This document shows, piece by piece, positions 1-32,839 of a stretch of 32,839 nucleotides of DNA. The stretch comes from Saccoglossus kowalevskii (Eukaryota; Hemichordata; Enteropneusta; Harrimaniidae). Below the pieces are notes generated by a model, which was not told the DNA's origin, did not search any database, and saw only the letters and a list, made by a program, of their open reading frames with translations. Made by a program: the position numbers and the translations under genes. The number at the start of each line of letters is the position of its first letter. Position 1 is the stretch's first letter. Location: NCBI RefSeq assembly GCF_000003605.2, contig NW_003138455.1, positions 1 to 32,839 on the forward strand, in the 5' to 3' direction.

Positions 1-155
1 TCATTTCTCGTCTATCAGATTGTTATGCATTGCTTAATTATTTGCCGTGAATATTTGTTGGATTTCAACATGCGAAAAAAACATGTGCATAGTCGTAAAC
101 ACTGAAATTGTATTATGCCAGCATAAATGACAGTTGTGCAAAATACTCAACAACA
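1..155 (-). repeat. Partial type-B spacer at left edge
   Basis: This is the 3' flank of copy 1, truncated by the window edge. It carries the type-B marks (gcttaattatttgccg, caacatgcgaaa, gccagcataaatgacag). The first 25 bases are slightly rearranged relative to other units (tcgtctatcag instead of tcgtctaatcag). Confidence 0.85.
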
Positions 156-237
156 AGGCAGCGGTGGGATACGAACCCACGCCATCGAAATGACTGGTGC
201 CTTAAACAAGCGCCTTTGACCGCTCGCCCACGCTACC
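156..237 (-). pseudogene. tRNA-Leu(AAG) type-B pseudogene, copy 1
   Basis: The 82-nt body has discriminator T instead of A, T58 in the T loop (breaks the B box), a T29-C41 mismatch in the anticodon stem and C11 to G in the D stem/A box. It shares a distinctive leader (tgtgtatggg) with copies 14, 18, 24 and 26. Confidence 0.85.
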
Positions 238-572
238 CTTAATTACAAGCAAAAACGACGCAATTACCCTGAAACACAAGCATTTCATGTGTGTATGGGT
301 ATTTACCGAGACGACTGAAGTGATATTTTTAACAATGCAAATACCAAAAATTCGAATACTATTTCCTGGGAATTGTTGACGCTGTAGATACTCACTAAAA
401 TCACGTTCACCGGGTTTCATTTCGTCATCTAATCAGATTGTATGAATTGCTTAGTTACTTGCCGTGAATATTTGTTGGATTTCAAAGTGCGACTAAAACA
501 TGTGCATAACCGTATACACAGAAATTGAATAACGGCAGCATGAATGACATTTGTGCAAAATACCGAACAACC

Positions 573-654
573 TGGCAGCGGTGGGATTCGAACCCACGCC
601 ATCGAAATGACTGGTGCCTTAAACCAGCGCCTTAGATCGCTCGGCCACGCTACC
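573..654 (-). tRNA. tRNA-Leu: tRNA-Leu(AAG), copy 2, G19 changed
   Basis: The body matches the reference except that G19 is A. G19 normally pairs with C56 to join the D and T loops, so folding may be weakened. Stems, anticodon AAG, B box and discriminator A are intact, and the T4 terminator is present. Confidence 0.75.
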
Positions 655-978
655 CATAGTTACATTGCCAAAACGACGCAATTACCCTGAAACACAAGCA
701 TTTCATGTGTGTTTGGGTATTTACCGAGACGACTGAAGTGATATTTGTAACAATGCAATGCCAAAAATGCGAATACTATTTTCTGAGAATTTTGACGCTG
801 TGGTTACTCATTGAAATGTGTTCACCGGGTTTCATTTCATCATCTAATCAGATGTATGCATTGCTTAATTATTTGCCGTGAATATTTGTTGGATTTCAAC
901 ATGCGAAAGAAACATGTGCATAGTCGTAAACACTGAAATTGTATTATGCCAGCATAAATGACAGTTGTGCAAAATACA

Positions 979-1060
979 AGGCAGCGGTGGGATACGAACC
1001 CACGCCATCGAAATGACTGGTGCCTTAAACAAGCGCCTTTGACCGCTCGGCCACGCTACC
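979..1060 (-). pseudogene. tRNA-Leu(AAG) type-B pseudogene, copy 3
   Basis: It has T73, T58 and T29-C41. Eight bases of the 3' flank next to the body are missing (aaatacaagg), bringing the T4 terminator to within a few bases of the tRNA end. Confidence 0.85.
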
Positions 1061-1396
1061 CTTAATTACATTGCAAAAACGACGCAATTACCCTGAAACA
1101 CAAGCATTTCATGTGTGTTTTGGTATTTGCCTAGACGACTGAAGTGATATTTGTAACAATGCAAATGCCACAAATTCGAATACTATTTTCTGGGAATTGT
1201 TGACGCTGTAGATACTCACTAAAATGACGTTCACCGGGTTTCATTTCATCATCTAATCAGATTGTATGAATTGCTTAGTTACTTGCCATGAATATTTGTT
1301 GGATTTCAAAGTGCGACTAAAACATGTGCATAACCGTATACACAGAAATTGAATAACGGCAGCTTGAATGACAGTTGTGCAAAATACTTAACAACC

Positions 1397-1478
1397 TGGC
1401 AGCGGTGGGATTCGAACCCACACCATCGAAATGACTGGTGCCTTAAACCAGCGCCTTAGACCGCTCGGCCACGCTACC
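1397..1478 (-). tRNA. tRNA-Leu: tRNA-Leu(AAG), copy 4
   Basis: It differs from the reference by one C to T at the base of the variable arm (plus strand ccacaccatcg). Acceptor, D, anticodon and T arms are intact. The spacer on its 3' side is type A. Confidence 0.88.
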
Positions 1479-1679
1479 CAAAATTACATTGCAAAAACGA
1501 CGCAATTACCCTGAAACACAAGCATTTCATGTGTGTTTGGGTATTTACCGAGACGACTGAAGTGATATTTGTAACAATGCAAATACCAAAAATTCGAATA
1601 CTATTTCCTGGGAATTGTTGACGCTGTAGATACTCACTAAAATGACGTTCACCGGGTTTCATTTCATCATCTAATCAGA

Positions 1680-2100
1680 TTGTATGCATTGCTTAGTTAC
1701 TTGCCGTGAATATTTGTTGTATTTCAAAGTGCGACTAAAACATGTGCATAACCGTATACACAGAAATTGAATAACGGCAGCTTGAATGACAGTTGTGCAA
1801 AATACTGAACAACCTGGCAGCGGTGGGATTCGAACCCACGCCATCGAAATGACTGGTGCCTTAAACCAGCGCCTTAGACCACTCGGCCACGCTACCCATA
1901 ATTACATTTCAAAAACGACGAAATTACCCTGAAACACAAGCATTTCATGTGTGTTTTGGTATTTGCCGAGACGACTGAAGTGATATTTGTAACAATGCAA
2001 ATGCCACAAATTCGACTGGAATACTATTTTCTGGGAATTGTTGACGCTGTAGATACTCACTAAAATGACGTTCACCGGGTTTCATTTCATCATCTAATCA
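1680..2100 (-). repeat. Unit with 5-bp insertion, shared with 5861-6281
   Basis: Contains copy 5 and a 5-bp insertion near 2016-2020 (attcgactggaatac). The same insertion recurs near 6197-6201, exactly 4181 bp away, with matching surroundings. Confidence 0.75.
1815..1896 (-). tRNA. tRNA-Leu: tRNA-Leu(AAG), copy 5
   Basis: A single D-loop C to T change just before the G18G19 pair separates it from the reference; copy 15 has the same change. Its upstream spacer carries a 5-bp insertion that copy 15 also shares. Confidence 0.9.
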
Positions 2101-2237
2101 GATTGTATGCATTGCTTAGTTACTTGCCGTGAATATTTGTTGGATTTCAACGTGCGAAAGAAACATGTGCATTGTCGTAAACACTGAAATTGTATTATGC
2201 CTGCATAAATGACAGTTGTGCAAAATACCGAACAACC

Positions 2238-2319
2238 TGGCAGCGGTGGGATTCAAACCCACGCCATCGAAATGACTGGTGCATTAAACAAGCGTCTTTG
2301 ACCGCTCGGCCACGCCACC
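2238..2319 (-). pseudogene. tRNA-Leu body with AAT anticodon, copy 6
   Basis: The anticodon loop reads TTAATGC, giving anticodon AAT (isoleucine box) on a leucine body. Other changes are C56 to T, T29-C41, A4 to G and a D-arm change. Discriminator A is kept. The damage suggests a pseudogene rather than a working mischarging tRNA. Confidence 0.8.
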
Positions 2320-2655
2320 CATAATTACATTGCAAAAACAACGCAATTACCCTGAAACACAAGCATTTCATGTGTGTTTTGGTATTTGCCGAGACGACTG
2401 ATGTGATATTTGTAATAATGCAAATGCCAAAAATGCGAATACTATTTTCTGAGAATTTTTGACGCCGTGGTTACTCATTAAAATGTGTTCGCCGGGTTTC
2501 ATTTCATCGTCTAATCAGATTGTTATGCATTGCTTAATTATTTGCCGTGAATATTTGTTGGATTTCAACATGCGAAAGAAACATGTGCATAGTCGTAAAC
2601 ACTGAAATTGTATTATGCCAGCATAAATGACAGTTGTGCAAAATACTCAACAACA

Positions 2656-2737
2656 AGGCAGCGGTGGGATACGAACCCACGCCATCGAAATGACTGGTGC
2701 CTAAAACCATCGCCTTAGACCGCTCGGCCACGCTACC
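2656..2737 (-). pseudogene. Chimeric tRNA-Leu with TAG anticodon, copy 7
   Basis: The T half is type B (T73, T58) while the D arm is reference-like. The anticodon loop is TTTAGGC, anticodon TAG. The first anticodon-stem base is A instead of C, so pair 27-43 is lost. A recombinant copy. Confidence 0.8.
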
Positions 2738-3072
2738 CATAATTACTTTGCGAAAACGACGCAATAACCCTGAAACACAAGCATTTCATGCGTGTTTGGG
2801 TATTTACCGAGACGACTGAAGTGATATTTGTAACAATGCAAATGCCACAAATGCGAATACTATTTTCTGAGAATTTTTGACGCTGTGGTTACTCATTAAA
2901 ATGTGTTCACCGGGTTTCATTTCATCATCTAATCAGATTGTATGCATTGCTTAGTTACTTGCCGTGAATATTTGTTGGATTTCAAAGTGCGACTAAAACA
3001 TGTGCATAACCGTATACACAGAAATTGAATAACGGCAGCTTGAATGACAGTTGTGCAAAATACTGAACAACC

Positions 3073-3154
3073 TGGCAGCGGTGGGATTCGAACCCACGCC
3101 ATCGAAATGACTGGTGCCTTAAACCAGCGCCTTAGACCGCTCGGCCACGCTACC
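3073..3154 (-). tRNA. tRNA-Leu: tRNA-Leu(AAG), copy 8, reference body
   Basis: Identical over 82 nt to the reference body described at 3908-3989. First of six consecutive reference copies. Type-A 3' flank with T4 terminator. Confidence 0.96.
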
Positions 3155-3490
3155 CATAATTACTTTGCAAAAACGACGCAATTACCCTGAAACTCAAGCA
3201 TTTCGTGTGTGTTTCGGTATTTACCGAGACGACTGAAGTGATATTTGTAATAATGCAAATGCCAGAAATGCGAATACTATTTCCTGGGAATTGTTGACGC
3301 TGTAGATACTCACTAAAATGACGTTCACCGGGTTTCATTTCATCATCTAATCAGATTGTATGCATTGCTTAGTTACTTGCCGTGAATATTTGTTGTATTT
3401 CAAAGTGCGACTAAAACATGTGCACAACCGTATACACAGAAATTGAATAACGACAGCTTGAATGACAGTTGTGCAAAACACTCAACAACC

Positions 3491-3572
3491 TGGCAGCGGT
3501 GGGATTCGAACCCACGCCATCGAAATGACTGGTGCCTTAAACCAGCGCCTTAGACCGCTCGGCCACGCTACC
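3491..3572 (-). tRNA. tRNA-Leu: tRNA-Leu(AAG), copy 9, reference body
   Basis: Reference body. The 3' flank has the gtgcacaaccg and cgacagcttg variants also seen next to copy 12, three units away, which marks a local duplication. Confidence 0.96.
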
Positions 3573-3891
3573 CATAATTACTTTGCAAAAACGACGCAAT
3601 TACCCTGAAACTCAAGCATTTCATGTGTGTTTGGGTATTTACCGAGACGACTGAAGTGATATTTGTAATAATGCAAATGCCACAAATGCGAATACTATTT
3701 TCTGAGAATTGTTGACGCTGTGGTTACTCATTAAAATGTGTTCACCGGGTTTCATTTCATCATCTAATCAGATTGTATGCATTGCTTAGTTACTTGCCGT
3801 GAATATTTGTTGGATTTCAAAGTGCGACTAAAACATGTGCATAACCGTATACACAGAAATTGAATAACGGCAGCTTGAATGACAGTTGTGC

Positions 3892-3895
3892 AAAA
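3892..3895 (-). terminator. RNA polymerase III T4 terminator (representative, copy 10)
   Basis: TTTT on the minus strand, 12 nt after the discriminator base, predicts a primary transcript with a short 3' trailer. Nearly every unit keeps it. It is reduced to TTT at copies 25, 33 and 35. Confidence 0.85.
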
Positions 3896-3918
3896 TACTG
3901 AACAACCTGGCAGCGGTG

Positions 3919-3929
3919 GGATTCGAACC
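3919..3929 (-). promoter_or_regulatory. Internal B box (representative, copy 10)
   Basis: GGTTCGAATCC on the minus strand, the TFIIIC-binding consensus. It is conserved in reference copies. It is broken by A58 to T in type-B copies and by C61 to A in type-C copies. Confidence 0.9.
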
Positions 3930-3971
3930 CACGCCATCGAAATGACTGGTGCCTTAAACCAGCGCCTTAGA

Positions 3972-3982
3972 CCGCTCGGCCA
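3972..3982 (-). promoter_or_regulatory. Internal A box (representative, copy 10)
   Basis: TGGCCGAGCGG on the minus strand fits TRGYNNARNNG. Copies 1, 14, 18, 24 and 26 have TGGGC here, changing the conserved pyrimidine. Confidence 0.9.
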
Positions 3983-4003
3983 CGCTACCCATAATTACTT
4001 TGC

Positions 4004-4008
4004 AAAAA
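4004..4008 (-). terminator. Second T run upstream of tRNA (representative, copy 10)
   Basis: TTTTT on the minus strand at -15 to -19 from the tRNA 5' end. It could stop transcripts that read through from the upstream neighbour, or it may simply be part of a T-rich leader. L2-type units have TTTT here. Confidence 0.45.
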
Positions 4009-4048
4009 CGACGCAATTACCCTGAAACACAAGCATTTCATGTGTGTT

Positions 4049-4062
4049 TCGGTATTTACCGA
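4049..4062. repeat. Short inverted repeat in spacer (representative)
   Basis: TCGGTA-TT-TACCGA, six-base arms around a two-base centre. It recurs in most units. Other units have an imperfect left arm (tgggtatttaccga or ttggtatttgccga). Confidence 0.5.
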
Positions 4063-4087
4063 GACGACTGAAGTGATATTTGTAATA

Positions 4088-4095
4088 ATGCAAAT
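4088..4095 (-). promoter_or_regulatory. Octamer-like ATGCAAAT (representative, copy 10)
   Basis: ATGCAAAT (ATTTGCAT on the tRNA strand) at about -99 to -106 recurs in most units. It equals the POU/Oct-1 octamer. Function here is unproven, since tRNA genes normally need only internal boxes. Confidence 0.3.
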
Positions 4096-4325
4096 GCCAG
4101 AAATGCGAATACTATTTTCTGAGAATTGTTGACGCTGTAGATACTCACTAAAATGACGTTCACCGGGTTTCATTTCATCATCTAATCAGATTGTATGCAT
4201 TGCTTAGTTACTTGCCGTGAATATTTGTTGGATTTCAAAGTGCGACTAAAACATGTGCATAACCGTATACACAGAAATTGAATAACGGCAGCTTGAATGA
4301 CAGTTGTGCAAAATACTGAACAACC

Positions 4326-4407
4326 TGGCAGCGGTGGGATTCGAACCCACGCCATCGAAATGACTGGTGCCTTAAACCAGCGCCTTAGACCGCTCGGCCA
4401 CGCTACC
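4326..4407 (-). tRNA. tRNA-Leu: tRNA-Leu(AAG), copy 11, reference body
   Basis: Reference body. Its leader (actcaagcatttcgtg, tttcctggg) is the same as that of copy 8, three units away. Confidence 0.96.
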
Positions 4408-4743
4408 CATAATTACTTTGCAAAAACGACGCAATTACCCTGAAACTCAAGCATTTCGTGTGTGTTTCGGTATTTACCGAGACGACTGAAGTGATATTTG
4501 TAATAATGCAAATGCCAGAAATGCGAATACTATTTCCTGGGAATTGTTGACGCTGTAGATACTCACTAAAATGACGTTCACCGGGTTTCATTTCATCATC
4601 TAATCAGATTGTATGCATTGCTTAGTTACTTGCCGTGAATATTTGTTGTATTTCAAAGTGCGACTAAAACATGTGCACAACCGTATACACAGAAATTGAA
4701 TAACGACAGCTTGAATGACAGTTGTGCAAAATACTCAACAACC

Positions 4744-4825
4744 TGGCAGCGGTGGGATTCGAACCCACGCCATCGAAATGACTGGTGCCTTAAACCAGCG
4801 CCTTAGACCGCTCGGCCACGCTACC
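4744..4825 (-). tRNA. tRNA-Leu: tRNA-Leu(AAG), copy 12, reference body
   Basis: Reference body. The 3' flank shares the rare gtgcacaaccg variant with copy 9. Confidence 0.96.
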
Positions 4826-5161
4826 CATAATTACTTTGCAAAAACGACGCAATTACCCTGAAACACAAGCATTTCATGTGTGTTTCGGTATTTACCGAGA
4901 CGACTGAAGTGATATTTGTAATAATGCAAATGCCAGAAATGCGAATACTATTTTCTGAGAATTGTTGACGCTGTAGATACTCACTAAAATGACGTTCACC
5001 GAGTTTCATTTCATCATCTAATCAGATTGTATGCATTGCTTAGTTACTTGCCGTGAATATTTGTTGGATTTCAAAGTGCGACTAAAACATGTGCATAACC
5101 GTATACACAGAAATTGAATAACGGCAGCTTGAATGACAGTTGTGCAAAATACTGAACAACC

Positions 5162-5243
5162 TGGCAGCGGTGGGATTCGAACCCACGCCATCGAAATGAC
5201 TGGTGCCTTAAACCAGCGCCTTAGACCGCTCGGCCACGCTACC
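5162..5243 (-). tRNA. tRNA-Leu: tRNA-Leu(AAG), copy 13, reference body
   Basis: Reference body, last of the six-copy intact run that starts at 3073. Type-A 3' flank and T4 terminator are intact. Confidence 0.96.
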
Positions 5244-5578
5244 CATAATTACTTTGCAAAAACGACGCAATTACCCTGAAACTCAAGCATTTCGTGTGTG
5301 TTTCGGTATTTACCGAGACGACTGAAGTGATATTTGTAACAATGCAAATGCCAAAAATGCGAATACTATTTTCTGAGAATTTTTGACGCTGTGGTTACTC
5401 ATTAAAATGTGTTCACCGGGTTTCATTTCATCATCTAATCAAATTGTATGCATTGCTTAATTATTTGCCGTGAATATTTGTTGGATTTCAACATGCGAAA
5501 GAAACATGTGCATTGTCGTAAACACTGAAATTGTATTATGCCAGCATAAATGACAGTTGTGCAAAATACTCAACAACA

Positions 5579-5660
5579 AGGCAGCGGTGGGATACGAACC
5601 CACGCCATCGAAATGACTGGTGCAATCAACAAGCGCCTTTGACCGCTCGCCCACGCTACC
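5579..5660 (-). pseudogene. Type-B tRNA pseudogene with ATT anticodon, copy 14
   Basis: The anticodon loop is TGATTGC: anticodon position reads ATT (asparagine box) and the universal T33 is G. It also has T73, T58, T29-C41 and C11 to G. Copy 27 has the same anticodon loop. Confidence 0.82.
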
Positions 5661-5995
5661 CATAATTGCAAGCAAAAACGACGCAATTACCCTGAAACAC
5701 AAGCATTTCATGTGTGTATGGGTATTTACCGAGACGACTGAAGTGATATTTTTAACAATGCAAATACCAAAAATTCGAATACTATTTCCTGGGAATTGTT
5801 GACGCTGTAGATACTCACTAAAATGACGTTCACCGGGTTTCATTTCATCATCTAATCAGATTGTATGCATTGCTTAGTTACTTGCCGTGAATATTTGTTG
5901 TATTTCAAAGTGCGACTAAAACATGTGCATAACCGTATACACAGAAATTGAATAACGGCAGCTTGAATGACAGTTGTGCAAAATACTGAACAACC

Positions 5996-6077
5996 TGGCA
6001 GCGGTGGGATTCGAACCCACGCCATCGAAATGACTGGTGCCTTAAACCAGCGCCTTAGACCACTCGGCCACGCTACC
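5996..6077 (-). tRNA. tRNA-Leu: tRNA-Leu(AAG), copy 15
   Basis: Carries the same single D-loop C to T as copy 5, and its upstream spacer has the same 5-bp insertion. The two units are 4181 bp apart (ten units). Confidence 0.9.
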
Positions 6078-6418
6078 CATAATTACATTTCAAAAACGAC
6101 GCAATTACCCTGAAACACAAGCATTTCATGTGTGTTTTGGTATTTGCCGAGACGACTGAAGTGATATTTGTAACAATGCAAATGCCACAAATTCGACTGG
6201 AATACTATTTTCTGGGAATTGTTGACGCTGTAGATACTCACTAAAATGACGTTCACCGGGTTTCATTTCATCATCTAATCAGATTGTATACATTGCTTAG
6301 TTACTTGCCGTGAATATTTGTTGGATTTCAAAGTGCGACTAAAACATGTGCATAACCGTATACACAGAAATTGAATAACGGCAGCTTGAATGACAGTTGT
6401 GCAAAATACTGAACAACC

Positions 6419-6499
6419 TGCAGCGGTGGGATTCGAACCCACGCCATCGAAATGACTGGTGCCTTAAACCAGCGCCTTAGACCGCTCGGCCACGCTACC
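6419..6499 (-). pseudogene. tRNA-Leu(AAG), acceptor-stem deletion, copy 16
   Basis: 81 nt: one C is missing from the 3' acceptor strand (plus strand cctgcagcgg), so the end reads GCTGCA. The rest matches the reference. The shortened acceptor should impair 3' end processing. A sequencing slip is possible, since only one base is lost. Confidence 0.7.
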
Positions 6500-6835
6500 C
6501 ATAATTACATTGCAAAAACGACGCAATTACCCTGAAACACAAGCATTTCATGTGTGTTTCGGTATTTACCGAGACGACTGAAGTGATATTTGTAATAATG
6601 CAAATGCCAGAAATGCGAATACTATTTTCTGAGAATTGTTGACGCTGTAGATACTCACTAAAATGACGTTCACCGGGTTTCATTTCATCATCTAATCAGA
6701 TTGTATGCATTGCTTAGTTACTTGCCGTGAATATTTGTTGGATTTCAACGTGCGACTAAATCATGTGCATAACCGTATACACAGAAATTGAATAACGGCA
6801 GCTTGAATGACCGTTGTGCAAAATACTGAACAACC

Positions 6836-6917
6836 TGGCAGCGGTGGGATTTGAACCCACGCCATCGAAATGACTGGTGCCTTAAACGAGCGCCTTAGAC
6901 CGCTCGGCCACGCTACC
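6836..6917 (-). tRNA. tRNA-Leu: tRNA-Leu(AAG), copy 17, stem mismatch
   Basis: G29 to C makes a C29-C41 mismatch in the anticodon stem. G57 to A in the T loop is a tolerated purine change. Acceptor and D arms match the reference. Function is doubtful. Confidence 0.55.
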
Positions 6918-7252
6918 CATAATTACATTTCAAAAACGACGCAATTACCCTGAAACACAAGCATTTCATGTGTGTTTGGGTATTTACCGAGACGACTGAA
7001 GTGATATTTGTAACAATGCAAATGCCAAAAATGCGAATACTATTTTCTGAGAATTTTTGACGCTGTGGTTACTCATTAAAATGTGTTCACCGGGTTTCAT
7101 TTCATCATCTAATCAAATTGTATGCATTGCTTAATTATTTGCCGTGAATATTTGTTGGATTTCAACATGCGAAAGAAACATGTGCATTGTCGTAAACACT
7201 GAAATTGTATTATGCCAGCATAAATGACAGTTGTGCAAAATACTGAACAACC

Positions 7253-7334
7253 TGGCAGCGGTGGGATTCGAACCCACGCCATCGAAATGACTGGTGCCTT
7301 AAACCAGCGCCTTTGACCGCTAGCCCACGCTACC
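7253..7334 (-). pseudogene. Chimeric tRNA-Leu(AAG), copy 18
   Basis: The T arm and anticodon arm are reference type, but the D arm and A box are type B with C11 to G and a further change (TGGGCTAG). The 3' flank is type B until about 50 bases before the tRNA and then switches to type A. Two exchange points lie close together. Confidence 0.8.
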
Positions 7335-7669
7335 CTTAATTACAAGCAAAAACGACGCAATTACCCTGAAACACAAGCATTTCATGTGTGTATGGGTATT
7401 TACCGAGACGACTGAAGTGATATTTTTAACAATGCAAAAACCAAAAATTCGAATACTATTTCCGGGGAAGTGTTGATGCTGTAGATACTCACTAAAATGA
7501 CGTTCACCGGGTTTCATTTCATCATCTAATCAGATTGTATGCATTGCTTAGTTACTTGCCGTGAATATTTGTTGGATTTCAAAGTGCGACTAAAACATGT
7601 GCATAACCGTATACACAGAAATTGAATAACGGCAGCTTGAATGACAGTTGTGCAAAATACTGAACAACC

Positions 7670-7751
7670 TGGTAGCGGTGGGATTCGAACCCACGCCATC
7701 GAAATGACTGGTGCCTTAAACCAGCGCCTTAGACCGCTCGGCCACGCTACC
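7670..7751 (-). tRNA. tRNA-Leu: tRNA-Leu(AAG), copy 19, U3-A70 acceptor
   Basis: G70 is A, turning the reference U3-G70 wobble into a Watson-Crick pair (GGTAGCG/CGCTACC). All other positions are reference. The base after the leader junction is also changed (accgataatt). Copy 20 shares both. Confidence 0.9.
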
Positions 7752-8086: not shown

Positions 8087-8168
8087 TGGTAGCGGTGGGA
8101 TTCGAACCCACGCCATCGAAATGACTGGTGCCTTAAACCAGCGCCTTAGACCGCTCGGCCACGCTACC
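8087..8168 (-). tRNA. tRNA-Leu: tRNA-Leu(AAG), copy 20, U3-A70 acceptor
   Basis: Body and first leader bases are identical to copy 19, but the deeper leader differs (actcaagcatttcgtg versus acacaagcatttcatg). The shared tract is therefore shorter than one unit. Confidence 0.9.
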
Positions 8169-9838: not shown

Positions 9839-9839
9839 C
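9758..9839 (-). pseudogene. tRNA-Leu(AAG) type-B pseudogene, copy 24
   Basis: T73, T58, T29-C41, C11 to G and G19 to A, plus changes in the variable arm and the base of the anticodon arm. One of the most damaged type-B copies. Confidence 0.87.
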
Positions 9840-12262: not shown

Positions 12263-12344
12263 TGGCAGCGGTGGTATTCGAACCCACGCCAGCGAAATGA
12301 CTGGTGCCTTAATCAAGCGCCTTTGACTGCTCGGCCACGCTACC
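12263..12344 (-). pseudogene. tRNA-Leu(AAG) type-C pseudogene, copy 30
   Basis: G53-A61 mismatch in the T stem/B box, T29-C41 and a further 31-39 mismatch in the anticodon stem, and a weakened variable arm. Discriminator A is kept. Confidence 0.82.
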
Positions 12345-15267: not shown

Positions 15268-15602
15268 CTTAATTACATTGCAAAGACGACGCAATTACCC
15301 TGAAACACAAGCATTTCATGTGTGTATGGGTATTTACCGAGACGACTGAAGTGATATTTGTAATAATGCAAATGCCAGAAATGCGAATACTATTTTCTGA
15401 GAATTGTTGACGCTGTAGATACTCACTAAAATGACGTTCACCGGGTTTCATTTCATCATCTAATCAGATTGTATGCATTGCTTAGTTACTTGCCGTGAAT
15501 ATTTGTGTATTTCAACATGCGAAATAAGCATGTGCATAGTCGTAAACACTGAAATTGTATTATGCCAGCATAAATGACTGTTGTGCAAAATACTAAACAA
15601 CA

Positions 15603-15683
15603 TGGCAGTGTGGAATTCGAACCCACGCCATCGAAATGACTGGTGCCTAAAACCAGCGCCTTAGACCGCTCGGCCACGCTACC
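15603..15683 (-). pseudogene. tRNA-Leu(TAG), acceptor/T-stem deletion, copy 38
   Basis: 81 nt. Anticodon stem is intact with anticodon TAG, but the 3' acceptor/T-stem junction has lost a base and is changed (ggcagtgtgg). C61 is T. Confidence 0.75.
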
Positions 15684-16019
15684 CATAATTACTTTACTAA
15701 AACAAGGCAATTACCCTGAAAGAAAAGCATTTCATGTGTGTTTCGGTATTTACCGAGACGACTGAAGTGATATTTTTAACAATGTAAATGCCACAAATTC
15801 GAATACTATTTCCTGGGAATTGTTGACGCTGTGGATACTCACTAAAATGACGTTCACCGGGTTTCATTTCATCATCTAATCAGATTGTATGCATTGCTTA
15901 GTTACTTGCCGTGAATATTTGTTTTATTTCAAAGTGCGATTAAAACATGTGCATAGCCGTATACACAGAAATTGAATAACGGCAGCTTGAATGACGGTTG
16001 TGCAAAATACTCAACAACC

Positions 16020-16101
16020 TGGCAGCGGTGGGATTCGAACCCACGCCATCGAAATGACTGGTGCCTTAAACCAGCGCCTTAGACCGCTCGGCCACGATAC
16101 C
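16020..16101 (-). tRNA. tRNA-Leu: tRNA-Leu(AAG), copy 39, G5 mismatch
   Basis: G5 to T creates a T5-C68 mismatch in the acceptor stem; otherwise reference. The same change sits in copy 40. Confidence 0.6.
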
Positions 16102-16894
16102 CATAATTACTTTGCAAAAACAAGGCAATTACCCCGAAACACAAGCATTTCATGTGTGTTTCGGTATTTACCGAGACGACTGAAGTGATATTTGTAACAA
16201 TGCAAATGCCAAAAACGCGAATACTATTTTCTGGAAATTTTTGACGCTGTAGTTACTCATTAAAATGTGTTCACCGGGTTTCATTTCGTCATCTAATCAG
16301 ATTGTATGCACTGCTTAATTATTTGCCGTGAATATTTGTTGGATTTCAACATGCGAAATAAACATGTGCATAGTCGTAAACACTGAAATTGTATTATGCC
16401 AGCATAAATGACTGTTCTGCAAAATACTAAACAACATGGCAGCGGTGGTATTCGAACCACGCCAGGGAAATGAGTGGTGCCTTAAACCAGCGCCTTAGAC
16501 CGCTCGGCCACGATACCCATAATTACTTTGCAAAAACAAGGCAATTACCCCGAAACACAAGCATTTCATGTGTGTTTCGGTATTTACCGAGACGACTGAA
16601 GTGATATTTGTAACAATGCAAATGCCAAAAACGCGAATACTATTTTCTGGAAATTTTTGACGCTGTAGTTACTCATTAAAATGTGTTCACCGGGTTTCAT
16701 TTCGTCATCTAATCAGATTGTATGCACTGCTTAATTATTTGCCGTGAATATTTGTTGGATTTCAACATGCGAAATAAACATGTGCATAGTCGTAAACACT
16801 GAAATTGTATTATGCCAGCATAAATGACTGTTCTGCAAAATACTAAACAACATGGCAGCGGTGGTATTCGAACCACGCCAGGGAAATGAGTGGT
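16102..16894 (-). repeat. Near-identical 416-bp tandem duplicate
   Basis: 16102-16478 matches 16518-16894 as far as I can read, including the rare tctggaaattt spacer variant and the damaged T arm of copies 40 and 41. The duplicates differ only beyond the anticodon. A very recent unequal exchange, or an assembly duplication. Confidence 0.75.
16437..16517 (-). pseudogene. tRNA-Leu(AAG) type-C pseudogene, copy 40
   Basis: 81 nt. One base of the T stem is missing (gaaccacgcc on the plus strand) and C61 is A. The variable arm has lost pairing (gccagggaaa) and the anticodon-stem base has a change at its outer end. G5 is T. Confidence 0.82.
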
Positions 16895-16933
16895 GCCTTA
16901 AACAAGCGCCTTTGACCACTCGGCCACGCTACC
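16853..16933 (-). pseudogene. tRNA-Leu(AAG) type-C pseudogene, copy 41
   Basis: Same 81-nt damaged T and variable arms as copy 40, but with a type-B anticodon stem (T29-C41) and reference G5. The body switches type inside the anticodon arm. Confidence 0.82.
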
Positions 16934-17677: not shown

Positions 17678-17759
17678 TGGCAGCGGTGGGATTCGAACCC
17701 ACGCCATCGAAATGACTGGTGCCTAAAACCAGCGCCTTAGACCGCTCGGCCACGCTACC
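17678..17759 (-). tRNA. tRNA-Leu: tRNA-Leu(TAG), copy 43, intact
   Basis: Identical to the reference body except A34 to T, giving loop TTTAGGC and anticodon TAG, which reads CUA and CUG leucine codons. All stems, the A and B boxes and discriminator A are intact. Nine bases (acagttgtg) are missing from the 3' flank, but the T4 terminator remains. The best TAG candidate in the window. Confidence 0.93.
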
Positions 17760-18095: not shown

Positions 18096-18177
18096 TGGCA
18101 GCGGTGGGATTCGAACCCACGCCATCGAAATGACTGGTGCCTAAAACCAGCGCCTTAGACCGCTCAGCCACGCTACC
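18096..18177 (-). tRNA. tRNA-Leu: tRNA-Leu(TAG), copy 44
   Basis: Anticodon TAG. C12 to T gives a U12-G23 wobble in the D stem. Everything else is reference. Type-D flank. Confidence 0.85.
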
Positions 18178-24838: not shown

Positions 24839-25174
24839 CATAATTACTTTGCAAAAACGACGCAATTACCCTGAAACTCAAGCATTTCGTGTGTGTTTCG
24901 GTATTTACCGAGACGACTGAAGTGATATTTGTAATAATGCAAATGCCAAAAATGCGAATACTATTTTCTGAGAATTTTTGACGCTGTGGTTACTCATTAA
25001 AATGTGTTCGCCGGGTTTCATTTCATAGTCTAATCAGATTGTTTTGCATTGCTTAATTATTTGCCGTGAATATTTGTTGGATTTCAACATGCGAAAGAAA
25101 CATGTGCATAGTCATAAACACTGAAATTGTATTATGCCAGCATAAATGACAGTTGTGCAAAATACTCAACAACA

Positions 25175-25256
25175 AGGCAGCGGTGGGATACGAACCCACG
25201 CCGTCGAAATGACTGGTGCCTTAAACCAGCGCCTTAGACCGCTCGGCCACGCTACC
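25175..25256 (-). pseudogene. Chimeric tRNA-Leu(AAG), copy 61
   Basis: Type-B T half (T73, T58) on a reference 5' half, as in copy 23. One extra variable-arm change (gccgtcg). Confidence 0.8.
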
Positions 25257-25590
25257 CATAATTACTTTGTAAAAACGACGCAATTACCCTGAAACTCAAG
25301 CATTTCGTGTGTGTTTCGGTATTTACCGAGACGACTGAAGTGATATTTGTAATAATGCAAATGCCAAAAATGCGAATACTATTTTCTGAAATTTTTGACA
25401 CTGTGGATACTCATTAAAATGTGTTCACCGGGTTTCATTTCATCATCTAATCAGATTGTATGAATTTCTTAGTTACTTGCCGTGAATATTTGTTGGATTT
25501 CAAAGTGCGACTAAAACATGTGCATAACCGTATACACAGAAATTGAATAACGGCAGCTTGAATGACAGTTGTGCAAAATACTGAACAACC

Positions 25591-25671
25591 TGGCAGCGGT
25601 GGGATTCGAACCCACGCCATCGAAATGACTGGTGCCTTAACCAGCACCTTAGACCGCTCGGCCACGCTACC
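25591..25671 (-). pseudogene. tRNA-Leu, anticodon-loop deletion, copy 62
   Basis: 81 nt. One T is missing so the anticodon loop is six bases (TAAGGC) and the frame of the anticodon is lost. One further change lies below the anticodon stem. T and acceptor arms are reference. Could be a sequencing slip. Confidence 0.7.
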
Positions 25672-26007
25672 CATAATTACTTTGCAAAAACGACGCAATT
25701 ACCCTGAAACTCAAGCATTTCGTGTGTGTTTCGATATTTACCGAGACGACTGAAGTGATATTTGTAATAATGCAAATGCCAAAAATGCGAATACTATTTT
25801 CTGAGAATTTTTGACGCTGTGGTTACTCATTAAAATGTGTTCGCCGGGTTTCATTTCATCGTCTAATCAGATTGTTATGCATTGCTTAATTATTTGTCGT
25901 GAATATTTGTTGGATTTCAACATGCGAAAGAAACATGTGCATAGTCATAAACACTGAAATTGTATTATGCCAGCATAAATGACAGTTGTGCAAAATACTC
26001 AACAACA

Positions 26008-26089
26008 AGGCAGCGGTGGGATACGAACCCACGCCATCGAAATGACTGGTGCCTTAAACAAGCGCCTTTTACCGCTCGGCCACGCCACC
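26008..26089 (-). pseudogene. tRNA-Leu(AAG) type-B pseudogene, copy 63
   Basis: T73, T58, T29-C41, A4 to G and a D-loop change (cctttt on the plus strand). Confidence 0.85.
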
Positions 26090-26424
26090 CATAATTACAT
26101 TTCAAAAACGACGCAATTACCCTGAAACACAAGCATTTCGTGTGTGTTTCGGTATTTACCGAGACGACTGAAGTGATATTTGTAACAATGCAAAAGCCAA
26201 AAATGAGAATACTATTTTCTGGGAATTTTTGACGCTGTAGTTACTCATTAAAATGTGTTCACCGGGTTTCAATTCGTCATCTAATCAGATTGTATGCACT
26301 GCTTAATTATTTGCCGTGAATATTTGTTGGATTTCAACATGCGACATAAACATGTGCATAGTCGTAAACACTGAAATTGTATTATGCCAGCATAAATGAC
26401 TGTTCTGCAAAATACTAAACAACA

Positions 26425-26506
26425 TGGCAGCGGTGGTATTCGAACCCACGCCAGCGAAATGACTGGTGCCTTAAACAAGCGCCTTTGACCGCTCGGCCAC
26501 GCTACC
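26425..26506 (-). pseudogene. tRNA-Leu(AAG) type-C pseudogene, copy 64
   Basis: G53-A61, T29-C41 and weakened variable arm; same body as copies 42 and 78, but here the type-D partner unit is not next to it. Confidence 0.83.
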
Positions 26507-26842
26507 CATAATAACATTGCAAAAACGACACAATTACCCGGAAACACAAGCATTTCATGTGTGTTTGGGTATTTACCGAGACGACTGAAGTGATATTTGT
26601 AATAATGCAAATGCCAAAAATGCGAATACTATTTTCTGAGAATTTTTGACGCTGTGGTTACTCATTAAAATGTGTTAGCCGGGTTTCATTTCATCGTCTA
26701 ATCAGATTGTTATGCATTGCTTAATTATTTGCCGTGAATATTTGTTGGATTTCAACATGCGAAAGAAACATGTGCATAGTCGTAAACACTGAAATTGTAT
26801 TATGCCAGCATAAATGACAGTTGTGCAAAATACTCAACAACA

Positions 26843-26924
26843 AGGCAGCGGTGGGATACGAACCCACGCCATCGAAATGACTGGTGCCTTAAACAAGAGC
26901 CTTTGACCTCTCGGCCACGCCACC
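26843..26924 (-). pseudogene. tRNA-Leu(AAG) type-B pseudogene, copy 65
   Basis: Shares the D-arm changes of copy 21 (aagagcc, gacctctcgg) with T73, T58, T29-C41 and A4 to G. It lacks copy 21's T-stem change. Confidence 0.85.
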
Positions 26925-27259
26925 CATAATTACATTTCTAAAACGACGCAATTACCCTGAAACACAAGCATTTCGTGTGTGTTTCGGTATTTACCGAGAC
27001 GACTGAAGTGATATTTGTAATAATGCAAATGCCAAAAATGGGAATACTATTTTCTGAGAATTTTTGACACTGTGGTTACTCATTAAAATGTGTTCACCGG
27101 GTTTCATTTCATAATCTAATCAGATTGTATGAATTGCTTAGTTACTTGCCGTGAATATTTGTTGGATTTCAAAGTGCGACAAAATCATGTGCATAGCCGT
27201 ATACACAGAAATTGAATTACGGCAGCTTGAATGACAGTTGTGCAAAATACTAAACAACA

Positions 27260-27341
27260 TGGCAGCGGTGGTATTCGAACCCACGCCATCGAAATAACTG
27301 GTGCCTAAAACCAGCGTCTTAAACCGCTCGGCCACGCTACC
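27260..27341 (-). pseudogene. tRNA-Leu(TAG) type-C pseudogene, copy 66
   Basis: Anticodon TAG with intact stem, but G53-A61, a D-stem mismatch (cgtcttaaacc on the plus strand) and a variable-arm change. It sits as an extra unit between copies 65 and 67, which are otherwise laid out like copies 21 and 22. Confidence 0.78.
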
Positions 27342-27676
27342 CGTAATTACTTTACTAAAACAAGGCAATTACCCTGAAACCAAAGCATTTCATGTGTGTT
27401 TCGGTATTTACCGAGACGACTGAAGTGATATTTGTAATAATGCAAATGCCAAAAATGCGAATACTATTTTCTGAGAATTTTTGACACTGTGGTTACTCAT
27501 TAAAATGTGTTCACCGGGTTTCATTTCATAATCTAATCAGATTGTATGAATTGCTTAGTTACTTGCCGTGAATATTTGTTGGATTTCAAAGTGCGACAAA
27601 AACATGTGCATAACCGTATACACATAAATTGAATAACGGCAGCTTGAATGACAGTTGTGCAAAATACTGAACAACC

Positions 27677-27758
27677 TGGCAGCGGTGGGATTCGAACCCA
27701 CGCCATCGAAATGACTGGTACCTTAAACCAGCGCCTTAGACCGCTCGGCCACGCTACC
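27677..27758 (-). tRNA. tRNA-Leu: tRNA-Leu(AAG), copy 67, C38 to T
   Basis: Body identical to copies 22 and 60. Confidence 0.88.
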
Positions 27759-28094
27759 CATAATTACTTTGCAAAAACGACGCAATTACCCTGAAACTCA
27801 AGCATTTCGTGTGTGTTTCGGTATTTACCGAGACGACTGAAGTGATATTTGTAATAATGCAAATGCCAAAAATGCGAATACTATTTTCTGAGAATTTTTG
27901 ACGCTGTGGTTACTCATTAAAATGTGTTCGCCGGGTTTCATTTCATCGTCTAATCAGATTGTTATGCATTGCTTAATTATTTGCCGTGAATATTTGTTGG
28001 ATTTCAACATGCGAAAGAAACATGTGCATAGTCATAAACACTGAAATTGTATTATGCCAGCATAAATGACAGTTGTGCAAAATACTCAACAACA

Positions 28095-28176
28095 AGGCAG
28101 CGGTGGGATACGAACCCACGCCATCGAAATGACTGGTGCCTTAAACCAGCGCCTTAGACCGCTCGGCCACGCTACC
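28095..28176 (-). pseudogene. Chimeric tRNA-Leu(AAG), copy 68
   Basis: Type-B T half (T73, T58) with reference 5' half, same composition as copy 23. Confidence 0.8.
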
Positions 28177-28511
28177 CATAATTACTTTGCAAAAACAACG
28201 CAATTACCCTGAAACACAAGCATTTCGTGTGTGTTTCGGTATTTACCGAGACGACTGAAGTGATATTTGTAATAATGCAAATGCCAAAAATGCGAATACT
28301 ATTTTCTGAGAATTTTTGACACTGTGGTTACTCATTAAAATGTGTTCACCGGGTTTCATTTCATCATCTAATCAGATTGTATGAATTGCTTAGTTACTTG
28401 CCGTGAATATTTGTTGGATTTCAAAGTGCGACTAAAACATGTGGATAACCGTATACACATAAATTGAATAACGGCAGCTTGAATGACAGTTGTGCAAAAT
28501 ACTGAACAACC

Positions 28512-28593
28512 TGGCAGCGGTGGGATTCGAACCCACGCCATCGAAATGACTGGTGCCTTAAACCAGCGCCTTAGACCGCTCGGCCACGCTACC
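28512..28593 (-). tRNA. tRNA-Leu: tRNA-Leu(AAG), copy 69, reference body
   Basis: Reference body, first of five consecutive reference copies (28512-30264). The 3' flank has gtggataacc and cacataaattg. Confidence 0.96.
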
Positions 28594-28930
28594 CATAATT
28601 ACTTTGCAAAAACGACGCAATTACCCTGAAACACAAGCATTTCGTGTGTGTTTCGGTATTTACCGAGACGACTGAGGTGATATTTGTAATAATGCAAATG
28701 CCAGAAATGCGAATACTATTTTTCTGAGAATTGTTGACGCTGTAGATACTCACTAAAATGACGTTCACCGGGTTTCATTTCATCATCTAATCAGATTGTA
28801 TGCATTGCTTAGTTACTTGCCGTGAATATTTGTTGTATTTCAAAGTGCGACTAAAACATGTGCACAACCGTATACTCAGAAATTGAATAACGGCAGCTTG
28901 AATGACAGTTGTGCAAAATACTGAACAACT

Positions 28931-29012
28931 TGGCAGCGGTGGGATTCGAACCCACGCCATCGAAATGACTGGTGCCTTAAACCAGCGCCTTAGACCGCTC
29001 GGCCACGCTACC
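28931..29012 (-). tRNA. tRNA-Leu: tRNA-Leu(AAG), copy 70, reference body
   Basis: Reference body. Flank base just past the tRNA is changed (gaacaact instead of gaacaacc), outside the mature tRNA. Confidence 0.96.
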
Positions 29013-29347
29013 CATAATTTCTTTGCAAAAACGACGCAATTACCCTGAAACTCAAGCATTTCGTGTGTGTTTCGGTATTTACCGAGACGACTGAAGTGAT
29101 ATTTGTAATAATGCAAATGCCAAAAATGCGAATACTATTTTCTGAGAATTTTTGACACTGTGGTTACTCATTAAAATGTGTTCACCGGGTGTCATTTCAT
29201 CATCTAATCAGATTGTATGAATTGCTTAGTTACTTGCCGTGAAAATTTGTTGGATTTCAAAGTGCGACTAAAACATGTGGATAACCGTATACACAGAAAT
29301 TGAATAACGGCAGCTTGAATGACAGTTGTGCAAAATACTGAACAACC

Positions 29348-29429
29348 TGGCAGCGGTGGGATTCGAACCCACGCCATCGAAATGACTGGTGCCTTAAACC
29401 AGCGCCTTAGACCGCTCGGCCACGCTACC
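29348..29429 (-). tRNA. tRNA-Leu: tRNA-Leu(AAG), copy 71, reference body
   Basis: Reference body. It occupies the position held by a G7-U66 body (copy 50) in the left block, within otherwise matching spacer. Confidence 0.96.
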
Positions 29430-29765
29430 CATAATTACTTTGCAAAAACGACGCAATTACCCTGAAACTCAAGCATTTCGTGTGTGTTTCGGTATTTACC
29501 GAGACGACTGAAGTGATATTTGTAATAATGCAAATGCCAGAAATGCGAATACTATTTTCTGAGAATTGTTGACGCTGTAGATACTCACTAAAATGACGTT
29601 CACCGGGTTTCATTTCATCATCTAATCAGATTGTATGCATTGCTTAGTTACTTGCCGTGAATATTTGTTGTATTTCAAAGTGCGACTAAAACATGTGCAC
29701 AACCGTATACTCAGAAATTGAATAACGGCAGCTTGAATGACAGTTGTGCAAAATACTGAACAACC

Positions 29766-29847
29766 TGGCAGCGGTGGGATTCGAACCCACGCCATCGAAA
29801 TGACTGGTGCCTTAAACCAGCGCCTTAGACCGCTCGGCCACGCTACC
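29766..29847 (-). tRNA. tRNA-Leu: tRNA-Leu(AAG), copy 72, reference body
   Basis: Reference body with the gtgcacaaccgtatactc flank also next to copies 49 and 70. Confidence 0.96.
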
Positions 29848-30182
29848 CATAATTTCTTTGCAAAAACGACGCAATTACCCTGAAACTCAAGCATTTCATG
29901 TGTGTTTGGGTATTTACCGAGACGACTGAAGTGATATTTGTAATAATGCAAATGCCACAAATGCGAATACTATTTTCTGAGAATTTTTGACGCTGTGGTT
30001 ACTCATTAAAATGTGTTCACCGGGTTTCATTTCATCATCTAATCAGATTGTATGCATTGCTTAGTTACTTGCCGTGAATATTTGTTGGATTTCAAAGTGC
30101 GACTAAAACATGTGCATAACCGTATACACAGAAATTGAATAACGGCAGCTTGAATGACAGTTGTGCAAAATACTGAACAACC

Positions 30183-30264
30183 TGGCAGCGGTGGGATTCG
30201 AACCCACGCCATCGAAATGACTGGTGCCTTAAACCAGCGCCTTAGACCGCTCGGCCACGCTACC
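30183..30264 (-). tRNA. tRNA-Leu: tRNA-Leu(AAG), copy 73, reference body
   Basis: Reference body, last of the five-copy intact run. Confidence 0.96.
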
Positions 30265-30600
30265 CATAATTACTTTGCGAAAACGACGCAATTAACCTGA
30301 AACTCAAGCATTTCGTGTGTGTTTCGGTATTTACCGAGACGACTGAAGTGATATTTGTAATAATGCAAATGCCAAAAATGCGAATACTATTTTCTGAGAA
30401 TTTTTGACGCTGTGGTTACTCATTAAAATGTGTTCACCGGGTTTCATTTCATCATCTAATCAGATTGTTACGCATTGCTTAATTATTTGCCGTGAATATT
30501 TGTTGTATTTCAACATGCGAAAGAAACCTGTGCATAGTCGCAAACACTGAAATTGTATTATGCCAGCATAAATGACAGTTGTGCAAAATACTCAACAACA

Positions 30601-30682
30601 AGGCAGCGGTGGGACACGAACCCACGCAATCGAAATGACTGTTGCCTTAAACAAGCGCCTTTGACCGCTCGGCCACGCCACC
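30601..30682 (-). pseudogene. tRNA-Leu(AAG) type-B pseudogene, copy 74
   Basis: T half and anticodon arm match copy 53 (gggacacgaac, gcaatcg, actgttgcc), but the D arm is ordinary type B with A4 to G. Confidence 0.85.
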
Positions 30683-31017
30683 CATAATTACATTTCAAAA
30701 ACGACGCAATTACCCTGAAACACAAGCATTTCATGTGTGTTTTGGTATTTGCCGAGACGACTGAAGTGATATTTTTAACAATGCAAATACCAAAAATTCG
30801 AATACTATTTCCTGGGAATTGTTGACGCTGTAGATACTCACTAAAATGACGTTCACCGGGTTTCATTTCATCATCTAATCAGATTGTATGCATTGCTTAG
30901 TTACTTGCCGTGAATATTTGTTGTATTTCAAAGTGCGACTAAACATGTGCATAACCGTATACACAGAAATTGAATAACGGCAGCTTGAATGACAGTTGTG
31001 CAAAATACTGAACAACC

Positions 31018-31099
31018 TGGCAGCGGTGGGATTCGAACCCACGCCATCAAAATGACTGGTGCCTTAAACCAGCGCCTTAGACCGCTCGGCCACGCTACC
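31018..31099 (-). tRNA. tRNA-Leu: tRNA-Leu(AAG), copy 75
   Basis: One change, in the variable-arm loop (TTCG to TTTG). All stems and boxes are reference. Confidence 0.9.
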
Positions 31100-31434
31100 C
31101 ATAATTTCTTTGCAAAAACGACGCAATTACCCTGAAACTCAAGCATTTCGTGTGTGTTTCGGTATTTACCGAGACGACTGAAGTGATATTTGTAATAATG
31201 CAAATGCCAAAAATGCGAATACTATTTTCTGAGAATTTTTGACACTGTGGTTACTCATTAAAATGTGTTCACCGGGTTTCATTTCATAATCTAATCAGAT
31301 TGTATGAATTGCTTAGTTACTTGCCGTGAATATTTGTTGGATTTCAAAGTGCGACAAAAACATGTGCATAACCGTATACACATAAATTGAATAACGGCAG
31401 CTTGAATGACAGTTGTGCAAAATACTGAACAACC

Positions 31435-31516
31435 TGGCAGCGGTGGGATTCGAACCCACGCCATCGAAATGACTGGTACCTTAAATCAGCGCCTTAGACC
31501 GCTCAGCCACGCTACC
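31435..31516 (-). tRNA. tRNA-Leu: tRNA-Leu(AAG), copy 76, stem mismatch
   Basis: C38 to T as in copy 22, plus G30 to A (A30-C40 mismatch) and C12 to T in the D stem. Probably weak or inactive. Confidence 0.55.
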
Positions 31517-31852
31517 CATAATTACTTTGCAAAAACGACGCAATTACCCTGAAACTCAAGCATTTCGTGTGTGTTTCGGTATTTACCGAGACGACTGAAG
31601 TGATATTTGTAATAATGCAAAGGCCAAAAATGCGAATACTATTTTCTGAGAATTTTTGACGCTGTGGTTACTCATTAAAATGTGTTCGCCGGGTTTCATT
31701 TCATAGTCTAATCAGATTGTTATGCATTGCTTAATTATTTGCCGTGAATATTTGTTGGATTTCAACATGCGAAAGAAACATGTGCATAGTCATAAACACT
31801 GAAATTGTATTATGCCAGCATAAATGACAGTTGTGCAAAATACTCAACAACA

Positions 31853-31934
31853 AGGCAGCGGTGGGATACGAACACACGCCATCGAAATGACTGGTGCCTT
31901 AAACCAGCGCCTTAGACCGCTCGGCCACGCTACC
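31853..31934 (-). pseudogene. Chimeric tRNA-Leu(AAG), copy 77
   Basis: Type-B T half with a further T-stem change (cgaacacacgcc) on a reference 5' half. Confidence 0.8.
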
Positions 31935-32267
31935 CATAATTACTTTGCAAAAACGACGCAATTACCCTGAAACTCAAGCATTTCGTGTGTGTTTCGGTAT
32001 TTACCGAGACGACTGAAGTGATATTTGTAATAATGCAAAAGCCAAAAATGCGAATACTATTTCTGGGAATTTTTGACGCTGTAGTTACTCATTAAATGTG
32101 TTCACCATGTTTCATTTCATCATCTAATCAGATTGTATGCACTGCTTAATTATTTGCCGTGAATATTTGTTGGATTTCAACATGCGAAATAAACATGTGC
32201 ATAGTCGTAAACACTGAAATTGTATTATGCCAGCATAAATGACTGTTCTGCAAAATACTAAACAACA

Positions 32268-32349
32268 TGGCAGCGGTGGTATTCGAACCCACGCCAGCGA
32301 AATGACTGGTGCCTTAAACAAGCGCCTTTGACCGCTCGGCCACGCTACC
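32268..32349 (-). pseudogene. tRNA-Leu(AAG) type-C pseudogene, copy 78
   Basis: G53-A61, T29-C41 and weakened variable arm; same body as copies 42 and 64. Confidence 0.83.
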
Positions 32350-32684
32350 CATAATAACATTGCAAAAACGACACAATTACCCGGAAACACAAGCATTTCA
32401 TGTGTGTTTGGGTATTTACCGAGACGACTGAAGTGATATTTGTAATAATGCAAATGCCGAAAATGCGAATACTATTTTCTGAGAATTTTTGACTCTGTGG
32501 TTACTCATTAAAATGTGTTCACCGGGTTTCATTTCATCATCTAATCAGATTGTATGCATTGCTTAGTTACTTGCCGTGAATATTTGTTTTATTTTAAAGT
32601 GCGACTAAAACATGTGCATAGCCGTATGCACAGAAATTGAATTACGGCAGCTTGAATGACAGTTGTGCAAAATACTAAACAACA

Positions 32685-32766
32685 TGGCAGCGGTGGGATT
32701 CGAACCCACGCCATCGAAATGACTGGTGCCTAAAACCAACGCCTTAGACCGCTCGGCCACGCTACC
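32685..32766 (-). tRNA. tRNA-Leu: tRNA-Leu(TAG), copy 79
   Basis: Anticodon TAG. C27 to T leaves a U27-G43 wobble at the base of the anticodon stem; all else is reference. A plausible working TAG gene. Confidence 0.85.
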
Positions 32767-32839
32767 CATAACTACTTTACTAAAACAAGGCAATTACCCA
32801 GGAACAAAAGCATTTCATGTGTATTTCGGTATTTACCAA
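32767..32839 (-). repeat. Partial leader spacer at right edge
   Basis: Type-D leader of copy 79 (ttactaaaacaaggc, ccaggaacaaaag), cut by the window end. Matches the leader of copy 43. Confidence 0.85.

Follow-up and report, generated by a model that had tools for sequence, protein, structure and literature searches.

Eukaryotes have evolved clusters of transfer RNA (tRNA) genes on many independent occasions (PMC2888827). As far as the available sections of this and the other sources cited below describe them, the known example closest in anatomy to the locus considered here is the tRNA-Cys cluster on chromosome 5 of Arabidopsis thaliana, in which units of about 420 base pairs (bp), each bearing a single gene of a single isotype, follow one another head to tail (PMC10701932). 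The number of units in this cluster varies, a pseudogene lies alongside, and identities between the clusters of different accessions range from about 80 to 100%; except for the gene at its boundary, the cluster is apparently epigenetically silenced (PMC10701932). Here, we describe an array of the same layout in the hemichordate Saccoglossus kowalevskii. It occupies a stretch of 32,839 nucleotides (contig NW_003138455.1 of assembly GCF_000003605.2, positions 1 to 32,839 of the forward strand; hereafter the window), in which 79 units each carry one tRNA-Leu body on the minus strand. The array is probably a satellite of tRNA genes that grew by tandem amplification, has been mixed by conversion, and is largely decaying. 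It departs from the Arabidopsis cluster in that the reference of the latter has four units against 79 here and consists of plant tRNA-Cys genes (PMC10701932), whereas in Saccoglossus our own rules class over half of the bodies as damaged and the variants are thoroughly recombined.

Other tandem arrangements share some of these features. In plants, they include Arabidopsis tRNA-Pro and Ser-Tyr-Tyr clusters, maize tRNA-Ile, and a bryophyte labelled Cpu (PMC12652284, PMC11700998), and such clusters reach 110 tRNA genes (PMC12652284). Like the present array, these are tandem runs of homogeneous or repeated tRNA genes, but isotypes and hosts differ, and clusters of identical genes there extend to at most 26 (PMC12652284, PMC11700998). 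The human 1q23.3 locus is likewise a tandem tRNA array that includes tRNA-Leu, and it varies in copy number; its units, however, are 7.3 kilobases (kb) long, GC-rich, 98% identical, and equipped with five tRNA genes of four isotypes (PMC4041453). Entamoeba also possesses tandem units with tRNA genes, many copies of which have been suggested to be transcriptionally inactive (PMC2652664). Unlike the units described here, those of Entamoeba contain up to five tRNAs each, with short tandem repeats between the genes in two species; the copies are mostly uniform within an isolate, and nearly all tRNA genes of E. histolytica are arrayed (PMC2652664).

Because arrays of one isotype with a unit length of about 420 bp have been published, the Saccoglossus array is best regarded as a large representative of an already known type. 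The original prediction, made from the sequence of the window, had called a near single-isotype leucine array of this density unusual. That claim needs narrowing, as homogeneous tandem tRNA arrays have been published, among them the tRNA-Cys units of similar length (PMC10701932); the part that survives is that this array is unusually large, dense, and decayed when set against the known ones. Its distinguishing mark is that several traits coincide: a single isotype, 79 or more short units, damage by our rules in 45 of the 79 bodies, and variants thoroughly mixed beyond about 200 bases. No tRNA-Leu satellite with 0.4 kb units was found in the titles and abstract openings of the open-licence literature, where animal coverage is thin, and the available sections of reports on Diplonema (PMC10161547) and Biomphalaria (PMC10875847) describe no comparable array.

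Organization of the array

A single tandem array spans the window. Tandem Repeats Finder reports it as one row from 1 to 32837, with a period of 417, 78.7 copies, and 92% matches, and alignment of the units resolves positions 1–32839 into 79 minus-strand units with a period of 417–418, of which 78 are whole and one is cut by the window end. The point at which the units are cut is our own choice. The period is not strictly 418 bp, as originally proposed: the starts of neighboring bodies lie 417 or 418 bases apart in 57 of 78 cases, within a range of 404 to 423. Since a unit starts right at base 1 and the final one is truncated, the array extends beyond the window at both ends, as had been surmised, and 79 is a lower bound on its units. 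This long head-to-tail succession of one monomer, captured in one Tandem Repeats Finder row, and the partial homogenization of its copies (mean divergence 7.7%) are those of a satellite.

Read along the tRNA strand, the consensus unit comprises a 5′ spacer of 181 bases, an intronless class II body of 82 bases, and a 3′ spacer of 154 bases. A TTTT run, the likely terminator for RNA polymerase III (Pol III), follows the body at bases 13–16 in 75 of the 79 units (at 1799–1802, minus strand, in unit u05) and at bases 5–8 in one more; in the remaining three, it occurs only at base 75. The predicted T-run is thus found within 16 bases of the body in 76 of 79 units. The accompanying claim of consensus Pol III internal boxes in every unit did not hold, because only 34 of the 79 bodies count as intact under the rules given below and A58 of the B box is lost in 19 of the 79.

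tRNA bodies and their isotype

ARAGORN detected 78 tRNAs, every one of them on the minus strand, and assigned 74 to leucine, with the anticodons AAG (64), TAG (9), and TAA (1); the four other calls were Asn-ATT (two), Ile-AAT (one), and one without an assigned isotype. The Rfam tRNA model RF00005 reached its gathering score at 71 places, with a top score of 59.1 bits. Combined, the two programs yield 79 bodies, exactly one per unit, which bears out the predicted series of 79 head-to-tail, same-strand class II bodies and its near restriction to leucine (74 of 78 ARAGORN calls). The contrary outcome, in which nearly all bodies would score as non-tRNA, did not appear: 71 of 79 pass the Rfam threshold. 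As controls, neither the plus strand nor any of 20 windows shuffled in two-base blocks returned a single tRNA. The 79 minus-strand bodies, all but a few called as one isotype and each less than 1 kb from its neighbor, constitute a bona fide tandem tRNA cluster.

In the consensus body, all 23 listed pairs of the acceptor, D, anticodon, variable, and T arms form, and the tested box positions and the TTTT run are both present. This body appears to resemble an animal tRNA-Leu-AAG. The class II cloverleaf of eukaryotic nuclear tRNA-Leu (AAG), judged by every pair and 14 conserved positions, is kept in 34 of 79 units, all of which also combine the A73 discriminator with a leucine anticodon. There are 53 distinct body sequences; the commonest equals the consensus, is a complete tRNA-Leu, and is common to 18 of the 79 units, while for 82-base windows placed off the body the commonest version is common to 5 to 18 of 78 units. 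The intact tRNA-Leu-AAG body of u05 (1815–1896, minus strand; 57.7 bits) serves as an example. The top score of 59.1 bits belongs to the minus-strand body at 7670–7751, in which a T-A acceptor pair replaces T-G, and equally to a second body at 8087–8168. At the other extreme, the degenerate body of u30 (12263–12344, minus strand) scores 32.3 bits with Rfam and was missed by ARAGORN.

A TAG anticodon takes the place of AAG in nine units (u07, u38, u43, u44, u54, u55, u57, u66, and u79). These units would keep the leucine isotype and read another leucine codon. Three of the nine are structurally intact in the structure check, all on the minus strand: u43 (17678–17759; 58.9 bits), u44 (18096–18177), and u79 (32685–32766).

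The completeness of the consensus body bears on whether the satellite was seeded by a tRNA-derived short interspersed element (SINE) instead of a tRNA gene. SINEs of this type are common and can amplify in tandem. However, the consensus body retains all the listed pairs, including a seven-pair acceptor stem, with TTTT close behind; the unit consensus contains no A-rich tail behind the body; and in a stretch of 840 bases the tRNA model alone reaches threshold, a lenient Rfam scan of this stretch returning two tRNAs and four further matches that all fell under their own gathering scores. We consider a SINE origin highly improbable. A BLAST query with one unit matched 7 phage and 18 plasmid records, in all of which coverage of the unit stayed below 80%. 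Four of the seven phage places fall in annotated tRNA-Leu genes, one in a hypothetical protein, and two in unannotated records; the 18 plasmid records contain 35 places, and the best one in each record matches the tRNA part, from query base 183 or later to 262, and coincides with no annotated feature. We take these matches to reflect ordinary tRNA similarity. Exact patterns taken from the tRNA and from the spacer had no match in viral or prokaryotic contig collections, which are uninformative on eukaryotes.

Intact and broken copies

To count as intact under our own rule, which is distinct from tRNAscan-SE, a body had to be 82 bases long, form 23 of 23 standard pairs, and hold 14 conserved positions, among them T8, A14, G18, G19, the first five bases of the T loop, and A73. 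Thirty-four bodies qualify (31 AAG and 3 TAG), 38 carry lesions, and 7 have insertions or deletions, so that functional-looking and broken versions are indeed mixed as first described, with 45 of 79 damaged. For the 34 intact copies, transcription by Pol III from the internal boxes would be possible.

The damage is in part patterned. Several lesions recur across the 79 units—A58T in 19, A73T in 18, an anticodon-stem mismatch in 21, and a D-loop change in 21—and these tend to travel with one 3′ flank haplotype. Bodies bearing A58T together with A73T make up a broken lineage, mostly with its own 3′ flank, whose members are scattered across the array. Because A58 lies in the B box and the discriminator base is A73, this lineage is likely to be both poorly transcribed and poorly charged. 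A representative is u14 (5578–5661, minus strand), which combines A58T, A73T, the anticodon-stem mismatch, and further changes, and which ARAGORN reads as Asn-ATT. Bodies of 81 bases occur close together in u38, u40, and u41 (window positions 15602–16933), and two of them, u40 and u41, form a second broken sub-lineage marked by linked changes that both carry in the anticodon stem, variable arm, and T stem. Another 81-base body, that of u62 (25591–25671, minus strand), has lost a base beside the anticodon and is the one to which ARAGORN assigned no isotype. The longest run of intact copies covers six consecutive units, u08–u13 (2919–5423, minus strand), a length with a permutation p of 0.21.

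The state of the B box also informs a rival proposal, that the array is an architectural element whose B boxes bind TFIIIC, serving as a boundary or an organizer of heterochromatin independently of any tRNA output. For the human tandem tRNA repeat at 1q23.3, a role as a boundary element has been suggested, according to the available text (PMC4041453). In the Saccoglossus array, mean divergence is 0.028 at unit positions 240–259, which include the B box, and seven of the 38 bodies with lesions keep the tested B-box positions. A tested B-box position is nevertheless changed in the other 31 of these 38, and the loss of A58 in 19 of the 79 units strikes inside the B box itself. We find an architectural role quite unlikely.

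Divergence and exchange between units

Whole units diverge from one another by 7.7% on average (3003 pairs), and only four of these pairs are identical at their aligned bases. Exact repeats extend to 603 bases at most, and none reaches the length of two full units. Such figures speak directly to the concern that a few real units were expanded by the assembler, a concern nourished by the fact that the array touches both window ends. Repetition of a few units would have left long exact copies; given the high diversity of units and the lack of any long exact repeat, this artefact is very unlikely. The order and number of units nonetheless rest on the assembly, and either could possibly be wrong.

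Divergence depends little on distance, with means of 6.9 to 8.6% for units separated by lags of 1 to 20. Higher-order repeats were sought and rejected: no period emerged at lags up to 20, and the longest similar block of consecutive units comprised five. Within the unit, linkage decays steeply. For 45 common variable sites, mean r2 is 0.54 between sites less than 50 bases apart, 0.29 at 50–100, 0.14 at 100–150, 0.07 at 150–200, and 0.04 at 200–250, and falls to 0.02 at one whole unit, against a floor of about 1/79. Plain unequal crossing-over would shift whole units and keep the linkage inside them, so its loss to near background within about 200 bases speaks for frequent gene conversion in short tracts. 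We infer that conversion is frequent and that its tracts are of the order of 100 bases. The history that would produce this arrangement begins with a single tRNA-Leu-AAG gene, which, together with about 335 bases of flank, may have multiplied in head-to-tail orientation to form an array resembling a satellite; its copies would then have been spread and mixed by unequal exchange and, chiefly, by the short-tract conversion that the linkage decay supports.

Selection on individual copies

With so many copies present, selection on each may have become too weak to see, in which case new variants should be at least as frequent in the bodies as in the spacers. To obtain an expectation, body variants were computed from spacer rates by base change. 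The bodies contain 22 singletons where 20.6 are expected, 15 of the 22 being disruptive (68% expected); 46 variants present in up to three units where 30.5 are expected, 28 of the 46 disruptive (62% expected); and 51 variants present in up to six units where 35.3 are expected, 30 of the 51 disruptive (62% expected). Rare body variants are neither fewer nor milder than the spacers predict and are, if anything, more numerous. Within the power of these tests, selection per copy is not visible in the window.

The broken units offer a second comparison. Units with and without founder lesions do not differ significantly in the share of rare variants that falls in the body as opposed to the flanks (p from 0.09 to 1 across the lesion and 3′-flank groupings). 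Those with the B flank haplotype do carry about three times as many rare body variants, 2.10 per unit in 29 units against 0.72 in 50. This might have signaled relaxed selection in the broken lineage, an explanation that we rejected, as the flanks of B-haplotype units are also richer in rare variants (4.55 vs. 2.54 per unit) and the comparison of body with flank is not significant.

Several observations weigh against a satellite that simply decays under conversion. Per-site divergence from the consensus is 0.031 in the body and 0.058 elsewhere in the unit, a difference that arises because common variants are relatively fewer in the body. Variants present in at least 12 units stand to rare ones as 4 to 51 in the body and 43 to 137 in the flanks (p = 0.006), and this shortage of common body variants could mean that broken variants were hindered from spreading. 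Linked sites, however, make these counts nonindependent, and after thinning of such sites the ratios become 2 to 51 and 14 to 137 (p = 0.25). Selection acting array-wide against the spread of broken bodies may still operate. Intact units are, furthermore, weakly clustered, forming 32 runs where 39.7 are expected (one-sided p = 0.045), which may leave room for an active sub-block. Finally, units at lags of 1–3 are slightly more alike, at 6.9–7.2% divergence against the 7.7% average, and some local duplication may have occurred beside conversion.

The first two of these observations would equally suit a dosage array, maintained by selection to furnish a large supply of tRNA-Leu-AAG much as ribosomal DNA does for ribosomal RNA, with the broken copies as tolerated passengers. 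In its favor are the lower divergence of the body (0.031 vs. 0.058) and its few common variants (4 to 51 vs. 43 to 137), together with the 34 of 79 bodies that are intact, the TTTT run that 76 of 79 units carry no more than 16 bases behind the body, and the identity of the commonest body as a complete tRNA-Leu. Such selection is difficult to reconcile with rare body variants that show neither a deficit nor a milder character relative to the spacer-based expectation, with founder-lesion units whose body-to-flank share of rare variants is not significantly different (p 0.09 to 1), and with damage, by the intactness rule, in 45 of 79 copies. We judge a dosage array unlikely and favor a conversion-mixed, decaying satellite.

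Mutation pattern in the bodies

The surplus of rare body variants has a base preference. These comparisons consider variants present in up to six units; several tests were made, and p values are uncorrected. At G/C sites, 43 rare variants fall on 50 body sites and 54 on 115 flank sites (p = 0.004). On the RNA-like strand, C-to-T changes number 13 at 22 body sites and 13 at 60 (p = 0.003), and the asymmetry between strands has p = 0.044. When only singletons are counted, there is no excess at G/C sites (19 at 50 body sites vs. 31 at 115, p = 0.28), and A/T sites show none either (8 at 32 vs. 75 at 204, p = 0.42). The G/C mutation signal is, accordingly, weak. Methylation-driven decay of CpG was considered as its source and is unsupported: the observed/expected ratio of CpG over the whole window is 1.16, and the body excess is also seen once CpG sites are set aside (27 variants at 34 non-CpG G/C sites vs. 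43 at 96, p = 0.02).

Rare variants peak in the 5′ part of the body and in the bases just before it, where 30-base windows contain 18–22 against a mean of 11.7. The highest 30-base window of any contains 24 (permutation p = 0.04, uncorrected for base composition). Mutation associated with transcription is known for tRNA genes, and both the G/C surplus and the 5′ peak are possibly such effects. A speculative extension based on the G/C surplus, to which we attach a low probability, is that germ-line transcription of the satellite increases the rates at which it mutates and exchanges sequence, conversion then reshuffling intact, broken, and AAG-to-TAG versions without visible selection per copy. 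If true, a germ-line-transcribed array would be a natural test bed for tRNA variants arising free of selection.

Other features of the unit

An imperfect inverted repeat lies 35–61 bases upstream of the u05 body (1931–1957, minus strand) and recurs at the equivalent place in other units. It was considered as a conserved hairpin and rejected, four of its 11 pairs being unpaired in 13 to 29 of the 79 units; it is probably not a conserved structure. Apart from tRNA, no Rfam family reaches its gathering score in the window.

Implications

The counts of tRNA genes in genome annotations can be inflated by arrays of this kind, where the copies that look usable are in the minority. The Saccoglossus array shows a family of tRNA genes at a stage intermediate between a gene cluster and a satellite. 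Because 79 copies can be aligned within a single stretch, it renders the concerted evolution of tRNA genes directly measurable, including the scale of conversion tracts, the pattern of mutation, and the absence of visible selection at the level of the single copy.

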